From contig NC_060028.1 of the NCBI RefSeq assembly GCF_021134715.1, positions 1,696,501 to 1,760,500 on the forward strand: 64,000 bases of DNA, given 5' to 3'. The position numbers and the translations under genes are program-made. Below the pieces are notes generated by a model. That model did not search any database. It worked only from the letters and a program-made list of their open reading frames with translations, and had not been told where the DNA came from. Of the stretch, positions 1-62,790 are shown one piece after another (positions within the stretch are counted from its first letter, which is position 1; each line of letters opens with the position of its first letter). The DNA is from Daphnia pulex (taxonomy: Eukaryota > Arthropoda > Branchiopoda > Diplostraca > Daphniidae).

Positions 1-3000
1 TACTAAGCCTGTGATGTGACCGTAAAGTCTTGAAATCACAAAATTGATGGCAGAAAGAACTTCAAATGAACATAACTTTTGAAATTTATTTTGGTATTTC
101 AATATTTTGGACCTAGGTAATAGAGGACATTCCCCTGAACCTTTTGAGACTTAGTTTTCATTTTGGTGTTGAGTACTAAGCCTGTGGTGTGACCGTAAAG
201 TCTTGAAATCACAAACATTATTGCATAAAAAATTTCAAATGCTCATAACTTTTGAAATTTATTTTGGTGTTTGAATATTTGGGACCTAGATAATAGAAAA
301 CATTCCTCTGAACCTTTTGAGACTTAGTTTCTATTTTGGTGTCGAGTACTAAGCCTGTGGTGTGACCGTAAAGTCTTGAAATCACAAACATTATTGCAGA
401 AAAAAAATTCAAATGCTCATAACTTTTGAAATTTATTTTGGTGTTTGAATATTTGGGACCTAGATAATAGAAAAAAAATTCCCCTGAACCATTTGAGACT
501 CAGATGTTATTTTTGTGTTGAGCACTAGGCTTGTGGTGTGACCGTAAAGTTTTGAAATCACAAAAATTATTGCAGAAAAAAATTCAAATGCTCATAACTT
601 TTGAAAATTATATATTGGTGTTTGAATATTTGGGATCTAGATAATAGAAGACATTCCCCAGAACATTTTGAGACTTAGTTTTTATTTAGGTAATGAGTAC
701 TAAGCCTGTTATGTGAGCTTAAAGTCTTAAAATCAAAAAATTATTGCAAAAAAAAAATTCAAATGCTCATAACTTATGAAATTTATTTTGGTGTTTGAAT
801 ATTTGGGACCTAGATAATAGAAGACATTCTCTAGAACTATTTGAGACTTCGTTTTCATTTTGGTGTTGAGTACTAAGCCTGTGATGTGACCGTAAAGTCT
901 TGAAATCACAAAAATTATTGCAGAAAAAAATTCAAATGCTCATAACTTTTGAAAATTATATATTGGTGTTTGAATATTTGGGATCTAGATAATAGAAGAC
1001 ATTCCCCAGAACATTTTGAGACTTAGTTTTCATTTTGGTGTTGAGTACTAAGCCGGTGGTGTGACGGTAAAGTATTGAAATCACAAAAATTATTGCAGAA
1101 AAAAATTCAAATGCTCATAACTTTTGAAATTTATTTTGGTGTTTGAAGATTTGAGACCTAGGTAATAGAAGACTTTCCCTTGAACCTTTTGAGACTTAGT
1201 TTTCATTTTGGTGTTGAGTACTAAGCCTGTAGTGTGACCGTAAAGTCTTGAAATCACAAAAATTATTGCAAAAAAAAAACTTCAAATGCACATAACTTTT
1301 GAAATTTATTTTGGTGTTTCAATATTTGAGACCTAGGTAATAGAAGACATTCTTCCGAACCTTTTGAGAATTAGTTTACATTTCGGTGTTGAGTACTAAG
1401 CCTGTGATGTGACCGTAAAGTCTTGAAATCACAAAAATTATGGCAGAAAAAAAATTCAAATGCTCATAACTTTTGAAATTTATTTTTGTGTTTGAATATT
1501 TGAGAAGTAGGTAATAGAAGACATTCCCCTAAACCTTTTGAGACTTAGTTTTTATTTTGGTGTTAAGTACTAAGCCTGTGGTGTGACCGTAAAGGCTTGA
1601 AATCACAAAATTGATGGCAGAAAAAAAATTCAAATGAACATAACTTTTGAAATTTATTTTTGTGTTTCAATATTTTGGACAAAGGTAATAGAGGAAATTT
1701 TTCTGAACCATTTGAGACTCAGATTTTATTTTGGTGTTGAGCACTAGGCTTGTGGTGTGACCGTAAAGTCATGAAATCACAAAAATTATTGCAGAAAAAA
1801 ATTCAAATGCTCATAACTTTTGAAATTTATATTGGTATTTGAATATTTGGGACCTAGATAATAGAAGACATTCCCCAGAACCTTTTGAGACTTAGTTTTA
1901 ATTTTGGTGTTGAGTACTAAGCCTGTGATGTGACCGTAAAGTCTTGAAATCAAAAAATTGTTTGCAGAAAGAACTTCAAATGAACATAACTTTTGAAATT
2001 TATTTTGGTGTTTCAATATTTTTGACATAGGTAATAGAGGACATTCCCCTGAACCTTTTGAGACTTAGTTTTCATTTCGGTGTTGAGTACTAAGCCTGTG
2101 ATGTGACCGTAAAGTCTTGAAATCACAAAAATTATTGCAGAAAAAAAATTCAAATGCTCATAACTTTTGAAATTTATTTTGGTGTTTGAATTTTTTTGAC
2201 CTAGGTAATAGAGGACATTATCATGAACCTTTTGAGACTTAGTTTTCATTTTGGTGTTGAGTACTAAGCCTGTGGTGTGACTGTAAAGTCTTGAAATCAC
2301 TAACATTATTGCAGAAAAAAAATTCAAATGTTCATAACTTTTGAAATTTATTTTGGTGTTTGAATATTTGGGACCTAGATAATAGAAGACATTCTCTAGA
2401 ACTATTTGAGACTTCGTTTTCATTTTGGTGTTGAGTACTAAGCCTGTGATGTGACCGTAAAGTCTTGAAATCACAAAAATTATTGCAGAAAAAAATTCAA
2501 ATGCTCATAACTTTTGAAAATTATATATTGGTGTTTGAATATTTGGGATCTAGATAATAGAAGACATTCCCCAGAACATTTTGAGACTTAGTTTTTATTT
2601 TGGTAATGAGTACTAAGCCTGTTATGTGAGCTTAAAGTCTTAAAATCAAAAAATTATTGCAAAAAAAAAATTCAAATGCTCATAACTTATGAAATTTATT
2701 TTGGTGTTTGAATATTTGGGACCTAGATAATAGAAGACATTCTCTAGAACCTTTTGAGACTTCGTTTTCATTTTGGTGTTGAGTACTAAGCCTGTGATGT
2801 GACCGTAAAGTCTTGAAATCACAAAACTGATGGCAGAAAAACTTCAAATGAACATAACTTTTGAAATTTATTTTGGTGTTTCAATATTTTGGACCTAGGT
2901 AATAGAGGACATTCCCCTGAATCTTTTGAGACTTAGTTTTCATTTTGGTGTTGAGTACTAAGCCGGTGGTGTGACGGTAAAGTATTGAAATCACAAAAAT

Positions 3001-6000
3001 TATTGCAGAAAAAAATTCAAATGCTCATAACTTTTGAAATTTATTTTGGTGTTTGAAGATTTGAGACCTAGGTAATAGAAGACTTTCCCTTGAACCTTTT
3101 GAGACTTAGTTTTCATTTTGGTGTTGAGTACTAAGCCTGTAGTGTGACCGTAAAGTCTTGAAATCACAAAAATTATTGCAAAAAAAAAACTTCAAATGCA
3201 CATAACTTTTGAAATTTATTTTGGTGTTTCAATATTTGAGACCTAGGTAATAGAAGACATTCTTCCGAACCTTTTGAGAATTAGTTTACATTTCGGTGTT
3301 GAGTACTAAGCCTGTGATGTGACCGTAAAGTCTTGAAATCACAAAAATTATGGCAGAAAAAAAATTCAAATGCTCATAACTTTTGAAATTTATTTTTGTG
3401 TTTGAATATTTGAGAAGTAGGTAATAGAAGACATTCCCCTTAACCTTTTGAGACTTAGTTTTTATTTTGGTGTTAAGTACTAAGCCTGTGGTGTGACCGT
3501 AAAGGCTTGAAATCACAAAATTGATGGCAGAAAAAAAATTCAAATGAACATAACTTTTGAAATTTATTTTTGTGTTTCAATATTTTGGACAAAGGTAATA
3601 GAGGAAATTTTTCTGAACCATTTGAGACTCAGATTTTATTTTGGTGTTGAGCACTAGGCTTGTGGTGTGACCGTAAAGTCATGAAATCACAAAAATTATT
3701 GCAGAAAAAAATTCAAATGCTCATAACTTTTGAAATTTATATTGGTATTTGAATATTTGGGACCTAGATAATAGAAGACATTCCCCAGAACCTTTTGAGA
3801 CTTAGTTTTAATTTTGGTGTTGAGTACTAAGCCTGTGATGTGACCGTAAAGTCTTGAAATCAAAAAATTGTTTGCAGAAAGAACTTCAAATGAACATAAC
3901 TTTTGAAATTTATTTTGGTGTTTCAATATTTTTGACATAGGTAATAGAGGACATTCCCCTGAACCTTTTGAGACTTAGTTTTCATTTCGGTGTTGAGTAC
4001 TAAGCCTGTGATGTGACCGTAAAGTCTTGAAATCACAAAAATTATTGCAGAAAAAAAATTCAAATGCTCATAACTTTTGAAATTTATTTTGGTGTTTGAA
4101 TTTTTTTGACCTAGGTAATAGAGGACATTATCATGAACCTTTTGAGACTTAGTTTTCATTTTGGTGTTGAGTACTAAGCCTGTGGTGTGACTGTAAAGTC
4201 TTGAAATCACTAACATTATTGCAGAAAAAAAATTCAAATGTTCATAACTTTTGAAATTTATTTTGGTGTTTGAATATTTGGGACCTAGATAATAGAAAAC
4301 ATTCCTCTGAACCTTTTGAGACTTAGTTTCTATTTTGGTGTCGAGTACTAAGCCTGTAGTGTGACCGTAAATTCTTGAAATCACAAAAATTATTGCAGAA
4401 AAAAATTCAAATGCTCATAACTTTTGAAATTTATTTTGGTGTTTGAATATTTGGGACCTAGATAATAGAAGACATTCCCTAGAACCTTTTGAGACCTCGT
4501 TTTCATTTTGGTGTTGAGTACTAAGCCTGTGATGTGACCGTAAAGTCTTGAAATCACAAAACTGATGGCAGAAAAAACTTCAAATGAACATAACTTTTGA
4601 AATTTATTTTGGTGTTTCAATATTTGAGACCTAGGTAATAGAAGAAATTCTTCCGAACCTTTTGAGACTTAGTTTTCATTTTGGTGTTGAGTACTAAGCC
4701 TGTGATGTGACCGTAAAGTCTTGAAATCACAAAAATTATGGCAGAAAAAAATTCAAATGCTCATAACTTTTGAAATTTATTTTGGTGTTTGAAGATTTGA
4801 GACCTAGGTAATAGAATACATTCCCCTAAACCTTTTGAGACTTAGTTTTTATTTTGGTGTTGAGTACTAAGCCTGTGAGATGACCGTAAAATCAAAAAAT
4901 TGTTGGCAGAAAGAACTTCAAATGAACATAACTTTTGAAATTTATTTTGATGTTTCAATATTTTGGACAAAAGTAATAGAGGACATTCCCCTGAACCTTT
5001 TGACACTTCGATTTCATTTTGGTGTTGAGCACTAAGCCTGTGGTGTGACCGTAAAGTCTTGAAATCACAAAAATTATTGCAGAAAAAAATGCAAATGCTC
5101 ATAACTTTTGAAATTTATATTGGTGTTTGAATATTTGGGACCTAGATAATAGAAGACATTGCCCAGAACCTTTTGAGACTTAGTTTTTATTTTGGTGTTT
5201 TTTTGGACAAAGGTAATAGAGGACATTCCCCAGAACCTTTTGAGACTTAGTTTTCATTTTGGCTTTCAGTACTAAGCCTGTGGTGTTACCGTAAAGTCTT
5301 GAAATCACAAAAATTATTGCAGAAAAAAATTCAAATGCTCATAACTTTTGAAATTTATTTTGGTGTTTGAAGATTTGAGACCTAGGTAATAGAAGACTTT
5401 CCCTTGAACCTTTTGAGACTTAGTTTTAATTTTGGTGTTGAGTACTTAGCCTGTAGGGTGACCGTAAAGTCTTTAAATCACAAAAATTATTGAAAAAAAA
5501 AACTTCAAATGCACATAACTTTTGAAATTTATTTTGGTGTTTCAATATTTGAGACCTAGGTAATAGAAGACATTCCCCTGAACCTTTTGAGACTTAGTTT
5601 CTATTTTGGTGTTGAGTACTAAGCCTGTAGTATGACCGTAAAGTCTTGAAATCACAAAGATTATTGCAGAAAAAAAAACACATTCTCATAACTTTTGAAA
5701 TTCATTTTGGTGTTTGAATATTTGCAACCTAGATAATAGAAGACATTCCCCAGAACCTTTTAAGACTTAGTTTTCATTTTGGTGTTGAGTACTAAGCCTG
5801 TGATGTGGCCGTAAAGTCTTGAAATCACAAAATTGATGGCAGAAAAAACTTCAAATGAACAAACTTTTTGAAATTTATTTTGGTCTTTCAATATTTTGGA
5901 CCTAGGTAATAGAGGACATTCCCCTGAATCTTTTGAGATTTAGTTTTCATTTTGGTGTTGAGTACTAAGCCTGTGGTGTGACCGTAATATCTTGAAATCA

Positions 6001-6431: not shown

Positions 6432-6504
6432 TGCCCCGAGTGAGGTTCGAACTCACGACCTCGAGATTATGAGACTCGCGCGCTGCCTACTGCGCTATCG
6501 AGGC
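6432..6504 (-). tRNA. tRNA-Met (CAT), elongator type
   Basis: On the minus strand a 73-nt cloverleaf begins GCCTCGATAGCGCAG. It has anticodon loop CTCATAA (anticodon CAT), a B-box GTTCGAACCTC, and an acceptor stem GCCTCG pairing with CGGGGC. A T-rich stretch (ATTATTTTA) follows the 3' end and can serve as Pol III terminator. A second copy is at 14903-14975. Confidence 0.93.
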
Positions 6505-6976
6505 TTGTATACTAATTTTCCAGCTGAGTATGAAACATTATTTGTTTGTAGTCTGTTTTAGGAAACTAACAAACGGAACTTTCAACCTTTCAGGTTTTTG
6601 ACCAACACGCCAGAGAACTCTCCCTCACTGATTAATACCGGCCCACTTATTTCCTTGTACACAAGTATGACGTAAACTCTCCTTTATAGGGTCAGTAGGC
6701 GTAAAAAAGCGAAGCGGCTGTTTGCACGGGAGCCTTTAAGTAAACGCAAATGTGAAATGACCAAGTTGCCTCAATGATTATGCTAGCTGTTGTAGTCTTG
6801 TAGAAGAAATCTATCCAAGGGTTGCGCAACTCATATGAGCAAATAAAAAAAGAAAAGAAAAAAAATAAATAAAGGGGAAAAAAAGGAAATTTCAATGCGT
6901 AATAATCAGTGGCAAAAGTCATCATTTGATTTGATTTGACGTGATACGATTTTAACACAATTTCAGGAAATTCGTA

Positions 6977-7049
6977 GCCCGGTTAGCTCAGCTGGTAGAG
7001 CGCGGGACTTTTAATCCTGAGGTCAAGGGTTCAAGTCCCTTATCGGGCG
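6977..7049 (+). tRNA. tRNA-Lys (TTT)
   Basis: A 73-nt cloverleaf starts GCCCGGTTAGCTCAG, with anticodon loop ACTTTTAATC (anticodon TTT) and B-box GGTTCAAGTCC. Acceptor stem GCCCGGT pairs with ATCGGGC. A TTTT terminator lies about 6 nt downstream. Confidence 0.95.
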
Positions 7050-7338
7050 GTTATATTTTGTAAAAGTGCAATTAAATAAAATGCTAAAATGTGCTAATAA
7101 GATCTGAAAGAAACGAATTTTCTATTTTTTCTTATGGTTTGGCAGTTTGCAAAGAAAACATGAGAAGAAATGTAGATTGAAGGTGGAGGAGTGTTTTAGG
7201 ACCGTCTAGCGATCAGTGAAAATAACTTGGGAGACTTTTGCTTACAGAATCGTGTATTCTCGTAATACATCAGTGGCAAAGGTCATCATTTAATAATTGA
7301 CGTGATATGGAACTAACACAATTTTGATTAAATCCGTA

Positions 7339-7411
7339 GCCCGGTTAGCTCAGTTGGTAGAGCGCGGGACTTTTAATCCTGAGGTCAAGGGTTCAAGTCC
7401 CTTATCGGGCG
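7339..7411 (+). tRNA. tRNA-Lys (TTT), second copy
   Basis: Differs from the copy at 6977 by one base in the D-loop (GTTGG instead of GCTGG). Same TTT anticodon, intact acceptor stem and downstream TTTT. It is the second half of a 362-bp tandem duplication. Confidence 0.95.
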
Positions 7412-14902: not shown

Positions 14903-14975
14903 TGCCCCGAGTGAGGTTCGAACTCACGACCTCGAGATTATGAGACTCGCGCGCTGCCTACTGCGCTATCGAGGC
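14903..14975 (-). tRNA. tRNA-Met (CAT), second copy
   Basis: Identical in sequence to the minus-strand tRNA at 6432-6504, with CAT anticodon. About 20 bp of 3' flank (gtcgtaaaatac) also resembles that copy, so the two come from a dispersed duplication larger than the gene itself. Confidence 0.93.
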
Positions 14976-54855: not shown

Positions 54856-55641
54856 ATATTAGAAAAACTAACAAGTAACAAGATTGTTTTAAGTTTTATT
54901 ATTGAACAGCTTTGATATAATGGTTTTTTCCATTCCTCACTGTTTTCATTTAATTTATGTTGATCAAAGTCTGCAGTGTTAGTGTTGCGAAGTCTTTCAG
55001 TAAATAAATACAAAGTCGAGATTGGACTTTTCAAGTTATTTTGGTTTCATCAAAGTTTTCCATTAAAACCAAATCAGATTATAGCAATAATCGCAAATTA
55101 AATTTTCCTTGTGATATTGCTGTATTATTTCGACGATGTTTTTTCTCGTTTCTATCAATCTTTTCTGCTGTCATCGTTGGAATTGCGACTGGTAATCTAG
55201 GCTTCAGAGCATGCACTCTTTTTCAGATTTATTCTCACAATGGTGATGATACTGGCAAAAAAATTGTGTCAGCGTTTGCGAACAATTGCTGCCATTGCAC
55301 TCTTGCAATTGCTGGACAGTCATGTAGGACCTATTTAAATTGCACATATTTTTTTTTATTGAACACGTTGGAAAAATATGTCCGCCAATAGCTATTTTAT
55401 ATTATCTTGCGATAAACACCCTTTAGTGTTTCCCTCAAAATTCCCGTTCAAGAGAAAAAAATATGTGTTGGTGTTTATTTTGAAATGGGATCACCCAACG
55501 TTGGTAAAACCATCCACCCCAGTGTAACATGTTTCTATGCCTCAAATAATATTAAGTACAGAAATTGATGCCCTACATCCTCGACCAAGCAATATTTAAG
55601 GACGCGCTGAAAGAGGGTAAAGAAGACTTCAAAAAGATTGG
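54856..55641. other. Spacer up to the inverted repeat
   Basis: Open frames on either strand have no recognisable domain. Ends at the outer edge of the large inverted repeat. Confidence 0.35.
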
Positions 55642-55790
55642 CGGAGATATAGGACCGGTCGAAATAGGCCCCGACGAAATAGGCCCGGCAAATAGGACCG
55701 GACGAAATAGGACCCTACGAAATAGGCCCACTTTTAAAATATTTTTAAAGCGGTCCTATTTCTCCGTCAAAGTGGGCCTATTTCTCCCAA
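55642..55790. repeat. GAAATAGGNCC repeat cluster with hairpin
   Basis: At least five direct copies of (G)AAATAGGMCC-type units. Two inverted copies (ggtcctatttctcc, gggcctatttctcc) follow after an A/T stretch. The segment ataggcccactttta can pair with caaagtgggcctat, forming a stem. Mirrored at 61397-61545. Confidence 0.8.
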
Positions 55791-56500
55791 TTATTTCTAA
55801 GTTCCATAAGGTACTCTGAAATATTTAAAAAATAAATTCGACCTACTCTACATGAGCGAGAAGGCGGAACAATCTACGAGAGATCCGCCACCGTATATAT
55901 TCATTGCCGTAACTCAAACCACGATGATTGATTTCACACATTGCCGTTTCGTTTTTCACATGTTAGGCAGCTGATTCCCGTCTTTATTTTTTTATTAACG
56001 TATTCCCCTTTATCTTAACTGTAAAATTCATTTTTTACAAACGTCGTTTTCACTTATTAACTATCGCTAATTTAAAAAAATGAACAAATTTCCGTGTTTT
56101 CTTCGCCATTTATTTGTTCCGTAGCTCGATCCCCCCTTCAGCGGCTCAGCCTTGAACGCGTCTCTCCCCTTTCAGCGGCTCAGCCTTGAACGCGTCTCCC
56201 CCCTCTACCTATGCCAGTACTCAGGTGAAGTAGGAAATGAACATGTTTGATGAAATAAATCTTACGGATTGATTTCAAACATATCCATAACAATTTCATG
56301 TTTTTTTTTTAAGCAACAAACGCATATCACTTTTAAGTTTCTTGTTTTATGGGGCTGACGCGAGGTGCTGCTCAAGCCGGCCAGAAGGGTGGTCGAGCGG
56401 GGGAGGCTGCACGCACTCATGGGAGAGGGGTGAGTGAAGGGGGGTTTACCTGGGCCATACCATACACGCCCATGTTTTCCCTTCTCCGTATATGTTAAAG

Positions 56501-56569
56501 GATGGACTAGTAGTTAGCAACTCGGGCTATGAATCTCTAGCGCCGGTGTTCGAATCTCGGCCATGTCGA
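56501..56569 (+). pseudogene. tRNA-like relic in the inverted-repeat arm
   Basis: gatggactagtagttagca (A-box-like) and ggtgttcgaatctc (B-box-like) lie at tRNA spacing. There is no clean acceptor pairing. The mirrored copy is at 60618-60686 on the minus strand. Confidence 0.45.
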
Positions 56570-57226
56570 TAAAGATTTTTATTTACAAAATATTTTAGAA
56601 AATTAATAGCTCAACAGCATAAAGCGGTGTGGAACTATCCTGGCGAAATTGATGGTTTTTTCTTTTTTTAATTGATTTAATATACAGCACGAAAAGGAAA
56701 TTTCTATTATAGTTGAATACCAAATGTGGTTTTGAAGATTTCCATCTATCGGTGATAGTAGCGTCACTAGCGTGGTTCAATAGCGTCATGAAGATGGCGT
56801 CATCTGCTCATCGTCAACTTCAGCGTTTAATTTACAAATAAGAAATAGAAATCTTATAAAAAAATTAAAATAGCTTCAAGATGTGTACATTTTATTTTTA
56901 ATCATTTTAAAATTTGAATTGCAATTTTCGTTACATTTGATCTGTAAGAATTCGATTCTGAATCATTCTCATTTCAAATCGATTCACACACATAGCAGAC
57001 GCTAACACATCAAGCGTCATCAATAGCGTGGTCTATGGTGCAATGCTATCACTGGAGTAAGGCGTTTATCTTCTATTCGGGTATGTTAGAGAACTCTTAT
57101 CATGTTATTTTCAATCTTTAGTTTCTAATATTGTAATTATCAACTTGTGTGGATAGGTAGCGTCATGATTGGCCTACCCTGATGGCGTCATGATCGCTGC
57201 TGATTGCCTTTCAAATAGGTTTTCAG

Positions 57227-57968
57227 CATTCTGCTTACACCTTTGGCATAGAGTCACATATTTCACAATCCAACATCAATTGGTACCAACAGCAGCCCTT
57301 CTCTCCATCATCCAGAAGGGTCTGAGATCAGTGTTGGAGATGTGTGTGACAATTTTAATATGATGAAATTTATCTACCACCAAATTTTTACTCGTGTATG
57401 TTTTTGTTTTTCAGGATGGTTCGGAACAACCCATGGAAAGCTTATCACTCATTGATGCTGTGATGCCTGATGTTGTTGCAAGTCGTCAACAGCAAACACA
57501 GAACAAACAGAAACCACAAGTGGTAAAGACAGAACCACCAAATTCCAATGGAGATGAACCCATGCATTCCAATCGTAAGATAGTCACTACTTTTTTTTGA
57601 TCCCCTGAACTGCTTACTTATTTTCCCTGCAACTATTTAATGAAGGCTGGGAAGAGGAAACAGGAGTAGAGATACCTGCCAGCAAATCAACTGTACTTCG
57701 TGGCCATGAATCTGAAGCGAGCAGGCTGAGTCTTGAGACACTGGCAACAGAAGTTCGAGAATGGAAATCACAGATTGATGACCTTCAGAAGGAATTGTTA
57801 GTTGCAGATCCCGATCTTATCGATTTTATGAAAGGTCTGTTAATATTTTTACTGGAACGTGTAATTTCTTTACTTAATTTTTACACTTTTTTCTCAGGAT
57901 TTCTAGTTGAAGCAAAGGAGAAAGTGTTGGCAATGCAGAATGCATTCATGGAACAATTAATCATTTAA
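57227..57968 (+). CDS. Unrecognised coiled-coil protein gene, 5' part not identified
   Basis: Four exons splice in phase: 57227-57319, 57415-57574, 57646-57834 and 57898-57968, giving about 170 aa to a stop. The product starts with a Ser/Gln-rich part (YTFGIESHISQSN, YQQQPFSPSS). A polar linker follows (QNKQKPQVVKTEPPNSN, with a VKTEP SUMO-consensus-like site). It ends in a helical C-terminus (LETLATEVREWKSQIDDLQ; FLVEAKEKVLAMQNAF) likely to form a coiled coil. No start codon is visible upstream in the arm, so first exons are missing or not recognised. The VKxE site and Gln-rich composition suggest a nuclear protein (inference). It converges tail to tail on CCDC22, 290 bp apart. Confidence 0.6.
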
Positions 57969-58258
57969 TTCAACAATTCCAACGTAATACGAAGGAAACC
58001 TGATTTATGGCTTATTTAATAGCTTAGCTTATCGTCGTTAGTAAATTGCATCGTAACGAATTAATTTTTTGGTAGCTTCTTGATTGTTTAAACGAAGTAC
58101 AAGGTTACAATCAATGCATTATAGTAGCGTTGTATAATGTACAATCCACTTAATGGCCACTGAATGAGATGGAATATTGGAATGTTAAACTTTATTGAAG
58201 TGAGAAAAATTTAATTTGAACAAAGTGAGACTGACTGGAAACAAACTAAGATGAATAA

Positions 58259-59469
58259 TTAAATTTTAGTACCGACTCGTTCTTCTAAAATCTGATTTTC
58301 CGTGCGTATCTGTTCGAGGTCACTTTGCAGTCGCCTAATTTTGGTAGCAATATTCTTACGTAATTCGGTCTCCGCCTGATTACGAAACAAACAGCATCAT
58401 TATTTGACATTATTTGACAATAATGCAAACAAACAAACAAAAATTAGCGAAACATACTTGATCTTCTAAATCCTTTATCTCTCGTGACAAGTTGCCAGAT
58501 TCTTTCACTAATTTTTGGATGTCAGAGCAATCAGTTTGCAATGAAATCAAATACTTGTAAATACGCCAGGCAGTCTCATCCGATTTGGCCATCTAATAAA
58601 AAAAGAAAAAGGTAACAACATTTTTTTATTAATAATATCAGCATTTTGATAGTAGTAATAGATACCCGAAAAATAATTTCATCCGTAACGGTAAACGTGC
58701 GCTCAACTTTTCCCTGTATTGAATTGATTTCACGCTGCACACTTTTTACATCTTCAAGTACCCGATGCATTTCTTCATTTTGTTTTTTGACGTTGGCTAC
58801 GATACTCAGTATTCTTTGAGTATAAAATGTTCTAAAAAGAAAGAGATACAACTATCTCGTTACTCAAGTGGATAACAAAAGTTTATTACCTTGTTAGTAC
58901 TGAAGGTGGCATAGATTCGATATGCGTTTGAAGTTTTTGTATAGTATCTTCTTTAGTACGAATTTCTTCTACAATGCTTCTTAAGGACGTCACTGTATGT
59001 TCAAGTGCAGCTTTAAGCTTCTCGCCTGCACTCTGTTCAGATAAAAAGAAGAAAATCAGAAACAAAAAATATTAATGTAGAGATACTTAATTACATTTTC
59101 GTGACGAAGAATTTTAGAACACATTATCTTATTTTTATTGATGTATAAAATGTATTGGCACTAGTTACCTGAATAGCATTCAGGTTCCCAATCTTTTGCC
59201 TTGTCAATTGTTTCAGTCTTTCTTTAAAACTTCTGTTCAGTTAACCCAGCAAATACCTTGAAATGAAATAAAATTAAAACAAATCGAATGAAATAGTAAA
59301 ATAAAACTTACACTTCCGTCAAAAGCATTTGCTTACATACACATTACATTACACATAGCATTACATAGCACAACTTACATACCAGTCAAGTGAGGTGACA
59401 TCTTTGTTGCTCGGAACTTCAGTTCCACCCTTCTGAATGTTGTTGGGTTCAGGCGCAGACAGATGAAAA
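58259..59469 (-). pseudogene. Ccdc22: CCDC22, 5'-truncated and frameshifted
   Basis: Minus exons: 59379-59469 (partial), 59169-59256, 58890-59032, 58666-58831, 58458-58592 and 58259-58375. The C-terminal coiled-coil region is clear: FYTQRILSIVANVKKQNEEM, ERTFTVTDEIIFR, DETAWRIYKYLISLQTDC, then REIKDLEDQ and a final helix to the stop. FTVTDEIIFR is characteristic of CCDC22, a COMMD/CCC-complex subunit acting with retromer/retriever in endosomal recycling. Exon 59169-59256 is 88 nt where phase 0 at both splice sites calls for 87. A TTTT run (about 59224) has one extra T. The N-terminal half, including the NN-CH domain, is absent: the right inverted-repeat arm begins directly upstream. A functional copy may exist elsewhere. 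Confidence 0.75.
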
Positions 59470-59960
59470 CTTCAGATTCATGGCCACGAAGTACAGTAGA
59501 TTTGCTGGCAGGTATCTCTACTCCTGTTTCCTCTTCCCAGCCTTCATTAAATAGTTGCAGGGAAAATAAGTAAGCAGTTCAGGGGATCAAAAAAAAGTAG
59601 TGACTATCTTACGATTGGAATGCATGGGTTCATCTCCATTGGAATTTGGTGGTTCTGTCTTTACCACTTGTGGTTTCTGTTTGTTCTGTGTTTGCTGTTG
59701 ACGACTTGCAACAACATCAGGCATCACAGCATCAATGAGTGATAAGCTTTCCATGGGTTGTTCCGAACCATCCTGAAAAACAAAAACATACACGAGTAAA
59801 AATTTGGTAGTAGATAAATTTCATCATATTAAAATTGTCACACACATCTCCAACACTGATCTCAGACCCTTCTGGATGATGGAGAGAAGGGCTGCTGTTG
59901 GTACCAATTGATGTTGGATTGTGAAATATGTGACTCTATGCCAAAGGTGTAAGCAGAATG
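59470..59960 (-). pseudogene. Truncated inverted copy of the coiled-coil gene
   Basis: Contains exact copies of exon 1 (59868-59960), exon 2 (59613-59772) and the first 72 nt of exon 3 (59470-59541). It then breaks off into CCDC22 sequence in mid-exon. It cannot encode the C-terminal coiled coil. Confidence 0.8.
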
Positions 59961-60617
59961 CTGAAAACCTATTTGAAAGGCAATCAGCAGCGATCATGAC
60001 GCCATCAGGGTAGGCCAATCATGACGCTACCTATCCACACAAGTTGATAATTACAATATTAGAAACTAAAGATTGAAAATAACATGATAAGAGTTCTCTA
60101 ACATACCCGAATAGAAGATAAACGCCTTACTCCAGTGATAGCATTGCACCATAGACCACGCTATTGATGACGCTTGATGTGTTAGCGTCTGCTATGTGTG
60201 TGAATCGATTTGAAATGAGAATGATTCAGAATCGAATTCTTACAGATCAAATGTAACGAAAATTGCAATTCAAATTTTAAAATGATTAAAAATAAAATGT
60301 ACACATCTTGAAGCTATTTTAATTTTTTTATAAGATTTCTATTTCTTATTTGTAAATTAAACGCTGAAGTTGACGATGAGCAGATGACGCCATCTTCATG
60401 ACGCTATTGAACCACGCTAGTGACGCTACTATCACCGATAGATGGAAATCTTCAAAACCACATTTGGTATTCAACTATAATAGAAATTTCCTTTTCGTGC
60501 TGTATATTAAATCAATTAAAAAAAGAAAAAACCATCAATTTCGCCAGGATAGTTCCACACCGCTTTATGCTGTTGAGCTATTAATTTTCTAAAATATTTT
60601 GTAAATAAAAATCTTTA

Positions 60618-60686
60618 TCGACATGGCCGAGATTCGAACACCGGCGCTAGAGATTCATAGCCCGAGTTGCTAACTACTAGTCCATC
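60618..60686 (-). pseudogene. tRNA-like relic, mirrored copy
   Basis: Exact reverse copy of 56501-56569 in the right arm of the inverted repeat. Confidence 0.45.
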
Positions 60687-61545
60687 CTTTAACATATACG
60701 GAGAAGGGAAAACATGGGCGTGTATGGTATGGCCCAGGTAAACCCCCCTTCACTCACCCCTCTCCCATGAGTGCGTGCAGCCTCCCCCGCTCGACCACCC
60801 TTCTGGCCGGCTTGAGCAGCACCTCGCGTCAGCCCCATAAAACAAGAAACTTAAAAGTGATATGCGTTTGTTGCTTAAAAAAAAAACATGAAATTGTTAT
60901 GGATATGTTTGAAATCAATCCGTAAGATTTATTTCATCAAACATGTTCATTTCCTACTTCACCTGAGTACTGGCATAGGTAGAGGGGGGAGACGCGTTCA
61001 AGGCTGAGCCGCTGAAAGGGGAGAGACGCGTTCAAGGCTGAGCCGCTGAAGGGGGGATCGAGCTACGGAACAAATAAATGGCGAAGAAAACACGGAAATT
61101 TGTTCATTTTTTTAAATTAGCGATAGTTAATAAGTGAAAACGACGTTTGTAAAAAATGAATTTTACAGTTAAGATAAAGGGGAATACGTTAATAAAAAAA
61201 TAAAGACGGGAATCAGCTGCCTAACATGTGAAAAACGAAACGGCAATGTGTGAAATCAATCATCGTGGTTTGAGTTACGGCAATGAATATATACGGTGGC
61301 GGATCTCTCGTAGATTGTTCCGCCTTCTCGCTCATGTAGAGTAGGTCGAATTTATTTTTTAAATATTTCAGAGTACCTTATGGAACTTAGAAATAATTGG
61401 GAGAAATAGGCCCACTTTGACGGAGAAATAGGACCGCTTTAAAAATATTTTAAAAGTGGGCCTATTTCGTAGGGTCCTATTTCGTCCGGTCCTATTTGCC
61501 GGGCCTATTTCGTCGGGGCCTATTTCGACCGGTCCTATATCTCCG

Positions 61546-62790
61546 GCTTCCCTTCAAAAAGCTTACAGCAGAAATCATGAACTTCTGCCAAAGTAGACAA
61601 GAGTTCACGACATGCAGCCACACAGGATTCAACACTACATAACCAGCAATTTTCAAAGCCAAAAAGATTGCCGGTATAAATTTGTAACATTGCAAAGATT
61701 TCACAACTAAATTGTTTCTAAATTTCAGGTACTTTCGCTCGTTTTTCTGAACGCAAAATTGCCAGCATTAAGCGAGACCTATGCGGGACACGGGGCTAAA
61801 ACGTACAGGGAAGTTTTGATATGTACGATTTGTTTTAAAATGCTGAAATTAAAAAAGCGTATTGAAAATGATGTTTTTTTTATCCTCTAAACTTCTTTTC
61901 CTGAATTTCTGATTAATTTTGCGAGTTTTTTGGTAAAAACAAAAAAATGGGAATCGGACAAAAATTTTTGGACTTTTAGTTTCCAATTTTTTTTATACTT
62001 CTATAAATATTTTTATAAAACCCAGACAGCTATTTGATAGGGTTTTCTTTCTAGTTTAAGATAGTATTTTTATTTTATAAAAAATGTGTTTCTAAGTATT
62101 TGATAATTTAGTTTATTTGATGTTGTTGGGGTCTGGGTTAAATGGTACAGCCATCTGTTGCCAGGTAAACGACCAAAAAAGATCGAAAAAAAAACCTCTT
62201 TACTTTTTTTATTGTATCTCCACTTATACTCAATAGAATGAAAAAAATTACAGTAATTCTGAAAGAGAAATGAATTTCCTTTTCATTAGTGCGTATTTCA
62301 ATATATTTAATCCATCCGTTGCAGAGAAAAATGGTGTTTCGTTTTGCCCCTGGCTCTGTTCCGTTTAACGCTAAAATTTTTTTTTTCCTTAATTTTTTCC
62401 TCTTTACATTTAATAAAATAACTATTACATAGTTTAACGAAAAAATATGAAAAAATTACCTAATGTAGAGAAATGCATGGGAATCACTCCTATATTTTTA
62501 TTTTAACTTAATTCCCAACACTTAAATTTTTTGTTTCATCATTCACAAGAAGAGAAGAAAAATTATGAATTCGATGAGATTAAAGATGATGGACAAAGAA
62601 GAGAACGAGGAGAAAAAATCAAACAAAGGATGAAACTGCAACCGCTTCAAGTGACAAAGGTAAAATAATTAAAATAGGTTGAATTTTAGAAAAAGAAAGC
62701 TTTGAAGATGAAATTGCAGACAGAGAAAAAGCAGTTTAAGAAGGTGGAGCAGGAGAAGAAGAATATCACCAACGAAGAAATCAACAACCT
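61546..62790. other. AT-rich spacer, no gene recognised
   Basis: Long A/T runs. The segment 62570-62790 is rich in GAA/AAG codons (lysine/glutamate) but broken by stops. No domain identified. Confidence 0.4.

Follow-up and report, generated by a model that had tools for sequence, protein, structure and literature searches.

A 64,000-nucleotide stretch of Daphnia pulex DNA (hereafter the window; C12:1696501-1760500) contains, at 55636-61551, an element of 5,916 bp in which pieces of host genes are enclosed by a very long inverted repeat. The two arms, 55642-57717 and 59470-61545, are each 2,076 bp long and mirror one another across a spacer of 1,752 bp, just as the first-pass annotation of this DNA had placed them. 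That annotation had claimed a single mismatch between the arms; we counted two, at 57378 (C/T) and 57689 (A/T). Its outer edges were close to the mark, the true ends lying 6 bp further out on both sides, at 55636 and 61551. An origin of the inverted repeat by chance is excluded. Our preferred interpretation, to which we assign a probability of about 0.7, is that 55636-61551 belongs to a multi-copy family of non-autonomous DNA transposons whose inverted ends are very long, a Pack-TIR (TIR, terminal inverted repeat) most likely mobilised by a transposase of the KDZ superfamily (Kyakuja, Dileera and Zisupton). All genome searches described below were made in one assembly of 133,188,837 bases in 13 contigs.

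The host-derived sequence begins within the arms. On the plus strand of the left arm lies a captured segment of TBL1/ebi (57208-57717), which comprises an exon (57415-57573), an intron and part of a further exon (57645-57716), with the exons located by tblastn and 88% identity to the TBL1 locus L024. It is joined through a 4-bp microhomology to a captured piece of a formin (FH2) exon (57714-57942, plus strand; 96.5% identity to L029 5658-5432), which is followed on the minus strand by captured formin 3' flank and the C-terminal exons of CCDC22 (57945-59111; 94.9% identity to L029 4896-3734). TBL1 sequence reappears on the right side, on the minus strand (59250-59979), as a piece at 59250-59333 and exons at 59382-59438, 59438-59542 and 59614-59772. 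The TBL1 assignment comes from a match to PDB 5naf_A (TBL1XR1, E=3.8e-5) and from the WD40 exons of L024 on contig C11, where all eight exon queries matched in order and without a stop (exons only). L029, on C4, is a convergent formin/CCDC22 locus (FH2, E=2.3e-74), and the CCDC22 piece of the element itself matched Pfam CCDC22_CC (E=7.5e-51) and PDB 8f2u_T (E=1.3e-39); between the formin and CCDC22 pieces, the element is without 535 bp of the C4 locus. The first-pass annotation had proposed captured gene ends and missed the TBL1 within the arms, and its proposal that CCDC22 was truncated on the spot does not hold, the end having been copied from a locus like that on C4.

Since the captured DNA retains introns, flanking sequence and intergenic sequence, it was taken from DNA and not from mRNA. 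As in a Pack-TIR, the interior derives from host genes, related loci exist elsewhere in the genome and introns are kept. TBL1 exon queries also matched L013 (e1-e7), L014 (e1-e3, e7 and e8), L021 (e2-e5) and L031 (e7); most of these queries were taken from L013, L014 and L031 themselves, and the independent matches are those in L021 and L024. When the spacer was searched against the genome, matches to its formin/CCDC22 part (approximately its first 1,394 bases) were confined to the window, L009, L010, L011, L012 and the C4 locus. A sister element, L030, carries a fragment of a phospholipid flippase (PDB 6k7g_A, E=1.3e-25), and its interior matches C9:3376181-3378172 and C12:5257365-5257939.

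Outside the captured sequence each arm consists of a native terminal region, which on the left (55643-57097, plus strand) contains AATAGGNCC clusters and shares homology with L016 as far as element coordinate 1462, and which returns as an inverted copy on the right (60090-61544, minus strand). Each region includes a 34-bp tandem repeat, with two units at 56132-56199 on the plus strand and its counterpart at 60983-61050 on the minus strand. The TBL1 homology starts at element coordinate 1573, leaving about 110 bp between the two homologies (57098-57207, plus strand) to which no origin is assigned. A tRNA-like reading of the arm found no support: ARAGORN reported no tRNA in the element, and Rfam gave two matches between 55600 and 58000, both below the family cut-offs.

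The target-site duplication CTTCAAAAA is found on the left at 55627-55635 and on the right at 61552-61560, the two agreeing at 9/9 positions. Immediately inside them lie the outer heptamers GATTGGC (55636-55642, plus strand) and GGCTTCC (61545-61551, minus strand; GGAAGCC when read inward), which are not inverted copies of each other and give the element asymmetric termini. The exact pattern GATTGGCGGAGATATAGG of the left terminus occurs nine times in the genome (reversed-pattern control, 0 and 1 at up to 2 mismatches) and the exact pattern GGAAGCCGGAGATATAGG of the right terminus 14 times (reversed-pattern control, 3 and 2 at up to 2 mismatches). The heptamers contain the GGC earlier proposed as a target duplication, which is therefore part of the terminus; the real duplication is 8 bp long, and 9 bp in the window copy, where it could represent 8 bp plus an extra C. 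Joining the flanks of the window copy gives the expected empty site only, one assembly having been searched.

The arm has at least 51 matches in the genome, a count that takes in both arms of each copy as well as fragments, and that comes from scoring 40 of 191 candidates. At 17 places two ends face each other within 10 kb, and 15 of these pairs were read, the other two being C2:6919040-6920604 and C8:11410497-11412475. Nine two-ended copies make up the window family (the window copy, L009, L010, L011, L012, L013, L014, L017 and L018); the remaining two-ended elements are the sister L030, the hybrid L031, the second-family members L045, L046 and L047, and a diverged 227-bp pair, L041. Both heptamers are exact in 8 of the 9 window-family copies (the right end of L011 reads GGTCTCC), and related heptamers bound the sister (GAATGGC/GGTAGCC) and the second family (GATTGGC/GGTAGTC). 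Of the 15 two-ended copies read, 11 are flanked by an exact 8-bp target duplication, and no duplication was seen at L011, L046 or L041. Termini that are near-constant in many copies and a target duplication of fixed length are features of a TIR DNA transposon.

The near-identity of the arms and the presence of real gene ends in the spacer could also be explained by a recent inverted segmental duplication of a host locus, or by an assembly artefact, with no transposition, and both had been raised in the first-pass annotation. A simple inverted duplication does not fit the other copies, however: copies at unrelated loci have near-constant termini and different exact target duplications, and the related gene loci are on other contigs (C11 and C4). 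An artefact is very unlikely because the eight further two-ended family copies each have their own flanks, and 7 of the 8 carry an exact 8-bp duplication that differs from copy to copy. We regard an origin without transposition as highly improbable. What is supported is the first annotator's main idea of a very large TIR element with captured gene ends: the family has many copies, its termini are near-constant and flanked by target duplications, and gene loci related to the captured pieces exist elsewhere. Other insertions with these termini, for which it had suggested a search, were also found, most with duplications of 8 bp in place of the 3 bp it had named.

Several relatives have features of their own. 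L041 (C5:5066418-5066644) is made up of two diverged ends that face each other within 227 bp; it has no target duplication and resembles a miniature relative. L018 (C11:5613800-5621000) has an unassigned interior of about 1.6 kb between 1.7-kb arms that are 99.9% identical, together with an exact 8-bp duplication; a scan of one open reading frame (ORF) in this interior gave nothing convincing. At L043 (C2:7576900-7579900), a ubiquitin-hydrolase-like ORF (UCH, E=3.3e-13) is located several hundred bases inward of a left end of the second family and may be a capture or a gene of the element. L046 (C2:9970581-9974943), a second-family element without a target duplication, includes an open frame of 831 aa at 1167-3659 for a putative reverse transcriptase of the long interspersed nuclear element (LINE) type. 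At L022 (C9:5105000-5110000), a short degenerate repeat makes up long open frames that adjoin a solo end of the window family.

Host DNA entered the window's lineage in at least two rounds of capture. The TBL1 segment was probably captured before formin/CCDC22, because its tract is more diverged (approximately 12-13% from L024, over 549-581 bp, against approximately 3.5-5% for formin/CCDC22) and because pieces of TBL1 occur also in copies without formin/CCDC22. The window copy is without 318 bp that L009 has, the join falling at a 4-bp microhomology, and this deletion relative to L009 happens to bring a TBL1 exon into frame with a formin exon, giving a chimeric ORF of 119 aa (57609-57968). A domesticated chimeric gene, in which the fusion or the captured CCDC22 end would yield a functional product, might be imagined from a frame that reads through and from the transcription of a share of animal Pack-TIRs described in the available text of Tan et al. 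2021 (PMC8277862), but the translated fusion matched no Pfam family at 1e-3, and the TBL1 exons of the related copies L013 and L014 contain stop codons. Such a function seems to us extremely improbable.

The arms themselves have been kept alike within copies. Comparing the native arm for substitutions only in 10 non-hybrid copies, we found that the two arms of one copy differ at 0-3 of 1,418-1,453 positions in eight copies, at 0/1082 in L018 and at 8/1173 in L017, and that the nearest arm in another copy is 8-30 differences away, except for L013 against L018 (1/1083). For 9 of the 10 copies, identity is higher between the copy's own arms than with the closest arm elsewhere, from which it follows that the arms were homogenised copy by copy. 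Such homogenisation would arise if one arm were copied from the other by conversion or by hairpin templating. The hybrid L031 (C3:5088261-5093207) combines a left arm of the L030 family with a right arm of the window family, at 66.8% identity, and keeps an exact 8-bp duplication. With homogenisation of kilobase-long arms and a hybrid between two families in hand, models of the origin and persistence of long TIRs become testable.

No transposase was recognised in the window copy, and the case for KDZ is built on L016 together with the 8-bp duplications. At L016 (C3:3396190), a terminus one letter off that of the family is followed by sequence 93% identical to the window (other copies, 91-95%) up to coordinate 1462 (1.46 kb). 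About 0.5 kb beyond this coordinate are ORFs of 149 and 92 aa in the right orientation, and the 92-aa ORF has a match to the KDZ-associated CxC3 (E=4.8e-28); a CxC3-type cysteine cluster is linked to a family end at this one locus only. The 8-bp duplication fits KDZ, as Zisupton and Dileera generate duplications of this length according to the part of PMC12730594 available, though other superfamilies make it too. At a further locus, L048, a PF18758 (KDZ) domain (E=2.6e-8) has a right end about 6 kb downstream in fitting orientation. Over 434 bp this end shares 84-85% identity with the second family, and it is the only end recognised, no left end being found in 7 kb upstream at up to 3 mismatches. 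We consider membership of the KDZ superfamily likelier than not, at about two chances in three, and not proven.

Several observations weigh against the interpretation as a KDZ-mobilised transposon with homogenised arms. L013 breaks the pattern of arm homogenisation, its arms differing at 2/1453 positions from each other and at 1/1083 from L018. L016 has no PF18758 match, no catalytic core was seen by eye in its three forward frames, and its CxC3 gene may be part of a nested KDZ element. No element with both family ends and a transposase was found. When KDZ-type matches lying inward of an end, within 10 kb and in fitting orientation, were counted against 2,000 shifts, 2 of 60 ends were near such a match, a value reached in 36/2,000 local and 9/2,000 unrestricted shifts; the count is partly circular, the L016 match having come from a query taken from L016, and for this reason the odds for KDZ were lowered. 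PF18758 matches alone gave 1 of 60 ends (L048), reached in 190/2,000 local and 98/2,000 unrestricted shifts. The termini of the nested KDZ element of L045, beginning CAACTTGATC, are quite unlike those of the family. Among known members, Kyakuja has 7-bp duplications and no TIRs (available text of PMC12730594), and the Zisupton of Pristionchus is without a target duplication in what is available of PMC9297572.

L045 (C7:5014830-5020508) is a second-family member with a KDZ-type element inside it on the reverse strand. An assignment of the second family to KDZ on the strength of L045 was rejected, as the KDZ part looks nested (L045r, approximately 275-3731) and has its own CAACTTGATC ends. The 8-bp repeat ctatttct flanks this KDZ element and is weak evidence, the motif being repeated in the surrounding arm. 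A related locus, L050 (C1:489500-496800), has a KDZ domain match.

The same type of gene-capturing long-TIR transposon might instead belong to another superfamily with 8-9 bp duplications, such as Mutator-like elements (MULE), hAT, P or Merlin, with the L016 gene a chance or nested neighbour. P and Merlin also make 8-bp duplications, and the target duplication of MULE is 9 bp (8-10). Duplications of 8 bp are stated for hAT in the available text of PMC12730594, and long TIRs with gene capture are, in that of PMC8277862, typical of MULE and foldback elements; the window copy has a duplication of 9 bp, and KDZ domains near family ends, when counted alone (1/60 ends), give weak support. The genome was searched for transposases with KDZ-type queries. 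Set against such an assignment, the duplication is exactly 8 bp, not 9, in 11 of 15 copies, and the 6.5 kb examined at L016 showed no inverted repeat with its start at the junction, although a partner end could lie further out. The P superfamily was set aside as a candidate at L032 (C2:8716000-8722000), where P-like transposase pieces (weak Pfam matches), the only P-like gene seen near a related end, lie between their own 193-bp inverted repeats (3130-3322 and 5701-5893). Taken together, we find a different superfamily unlikely rather than negligible.

Under the KDZ interpretation, template switching or gap repair would have put host DNA in place of the interior of an ancestral KDZ element, inward growth of the palindrome would then have brought TBL1 into both arms, and copies would be moved by a transposase supplied in trans. 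It is conceivable, if somewhat doubtful, that a KDZ lineage in this animal acts as a serial gene-capture machine, in which palindromic arms take up host DNA and grow inward, and in which one arm of each copy serves as the template for the other, a foldback hairpin being one possible route. If this is true, the inverted ends come to include captured genes, which then spread along with them.

Elsewhere in the window, positions 1-6000 have a G+C content of 31-32%, against 35-47% in the other 2-kb steps, and a positive GC skew, and ARAGORN located four tRNA genes, two Met and two Lys, at 6432-7411 and 14903-14975.

The family constitutes a multi-copy animal case in which related source loci are identified and copies preserve intermediate states. 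Among known systems, Galileo, of the P superfamily in Drosophila, has foldback-like long TIRs, 7-bp duplications and a P-type transposase; our element shares the foldback-like long TIRs, and differs in that the one P-like gene found here sits between its own inverted repeats. Ssk-FB4, of the Drosophila foldback element FB4, has, in the available text of PMC8277862, TIRs of about 700 bp, gene capture and several insertions with distinct duplications; there, however, the duplications are 9-10 bp and the element is a MULE, whereas here they are 8 bp, the superfamily is probably KDZ and the arms are approximately 1.2-2.3 kb.

With KDZ elements, as far as PMC12730594 is available, the window family shares the 8-bp duplications of Zisupton and Dileera and, at L016, a CxC3-type gene after one family end; unlike them, the window copy has no recognised transposase, very long TIRs and asymmetric outer heptamers, and the captures are pieces of unrelated host genes, not TET/JBP. 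Zisupton is already among the transposable elements of Daphnia magna in a table of the available part of PMC8594854, and the literature searched, of which coverage was partial, named no Daphnia KDZ element with pieces of host genes in it. Plant Pack-TYPE elements and Pack-MULEs likewise combine non-autonomous ends with host coding DNA (available text of PMC8903248), in contrast to the animal genome and other superfamily described here. In plants, TIR transposons are familiar agents of duplication, and in animals this role is almost unexplored, according to the available text of PMC8277862. The main text of that source contains no mention of KDZ, Zisupton or Daphnia; it assigns 323 of 370 animal Pack-TIRs to hAT or TcMariner, with none in insect reference genomes, and a figure legend lists four multi-copy cases among 281. 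Of the published kinds, these animal Pack-TIRs come nearest: as there, our element is a non-autonomous TIR transposon with captured host DNA and microhomology at breakpoints, and the multi-copy cases are explained in the same available text by template switching followed by transposition; what sets the Daphnia elements apart from those Pack-TIRs is a multi-copy family with serial captures, in which captured DNA has come to lie inside the arms.

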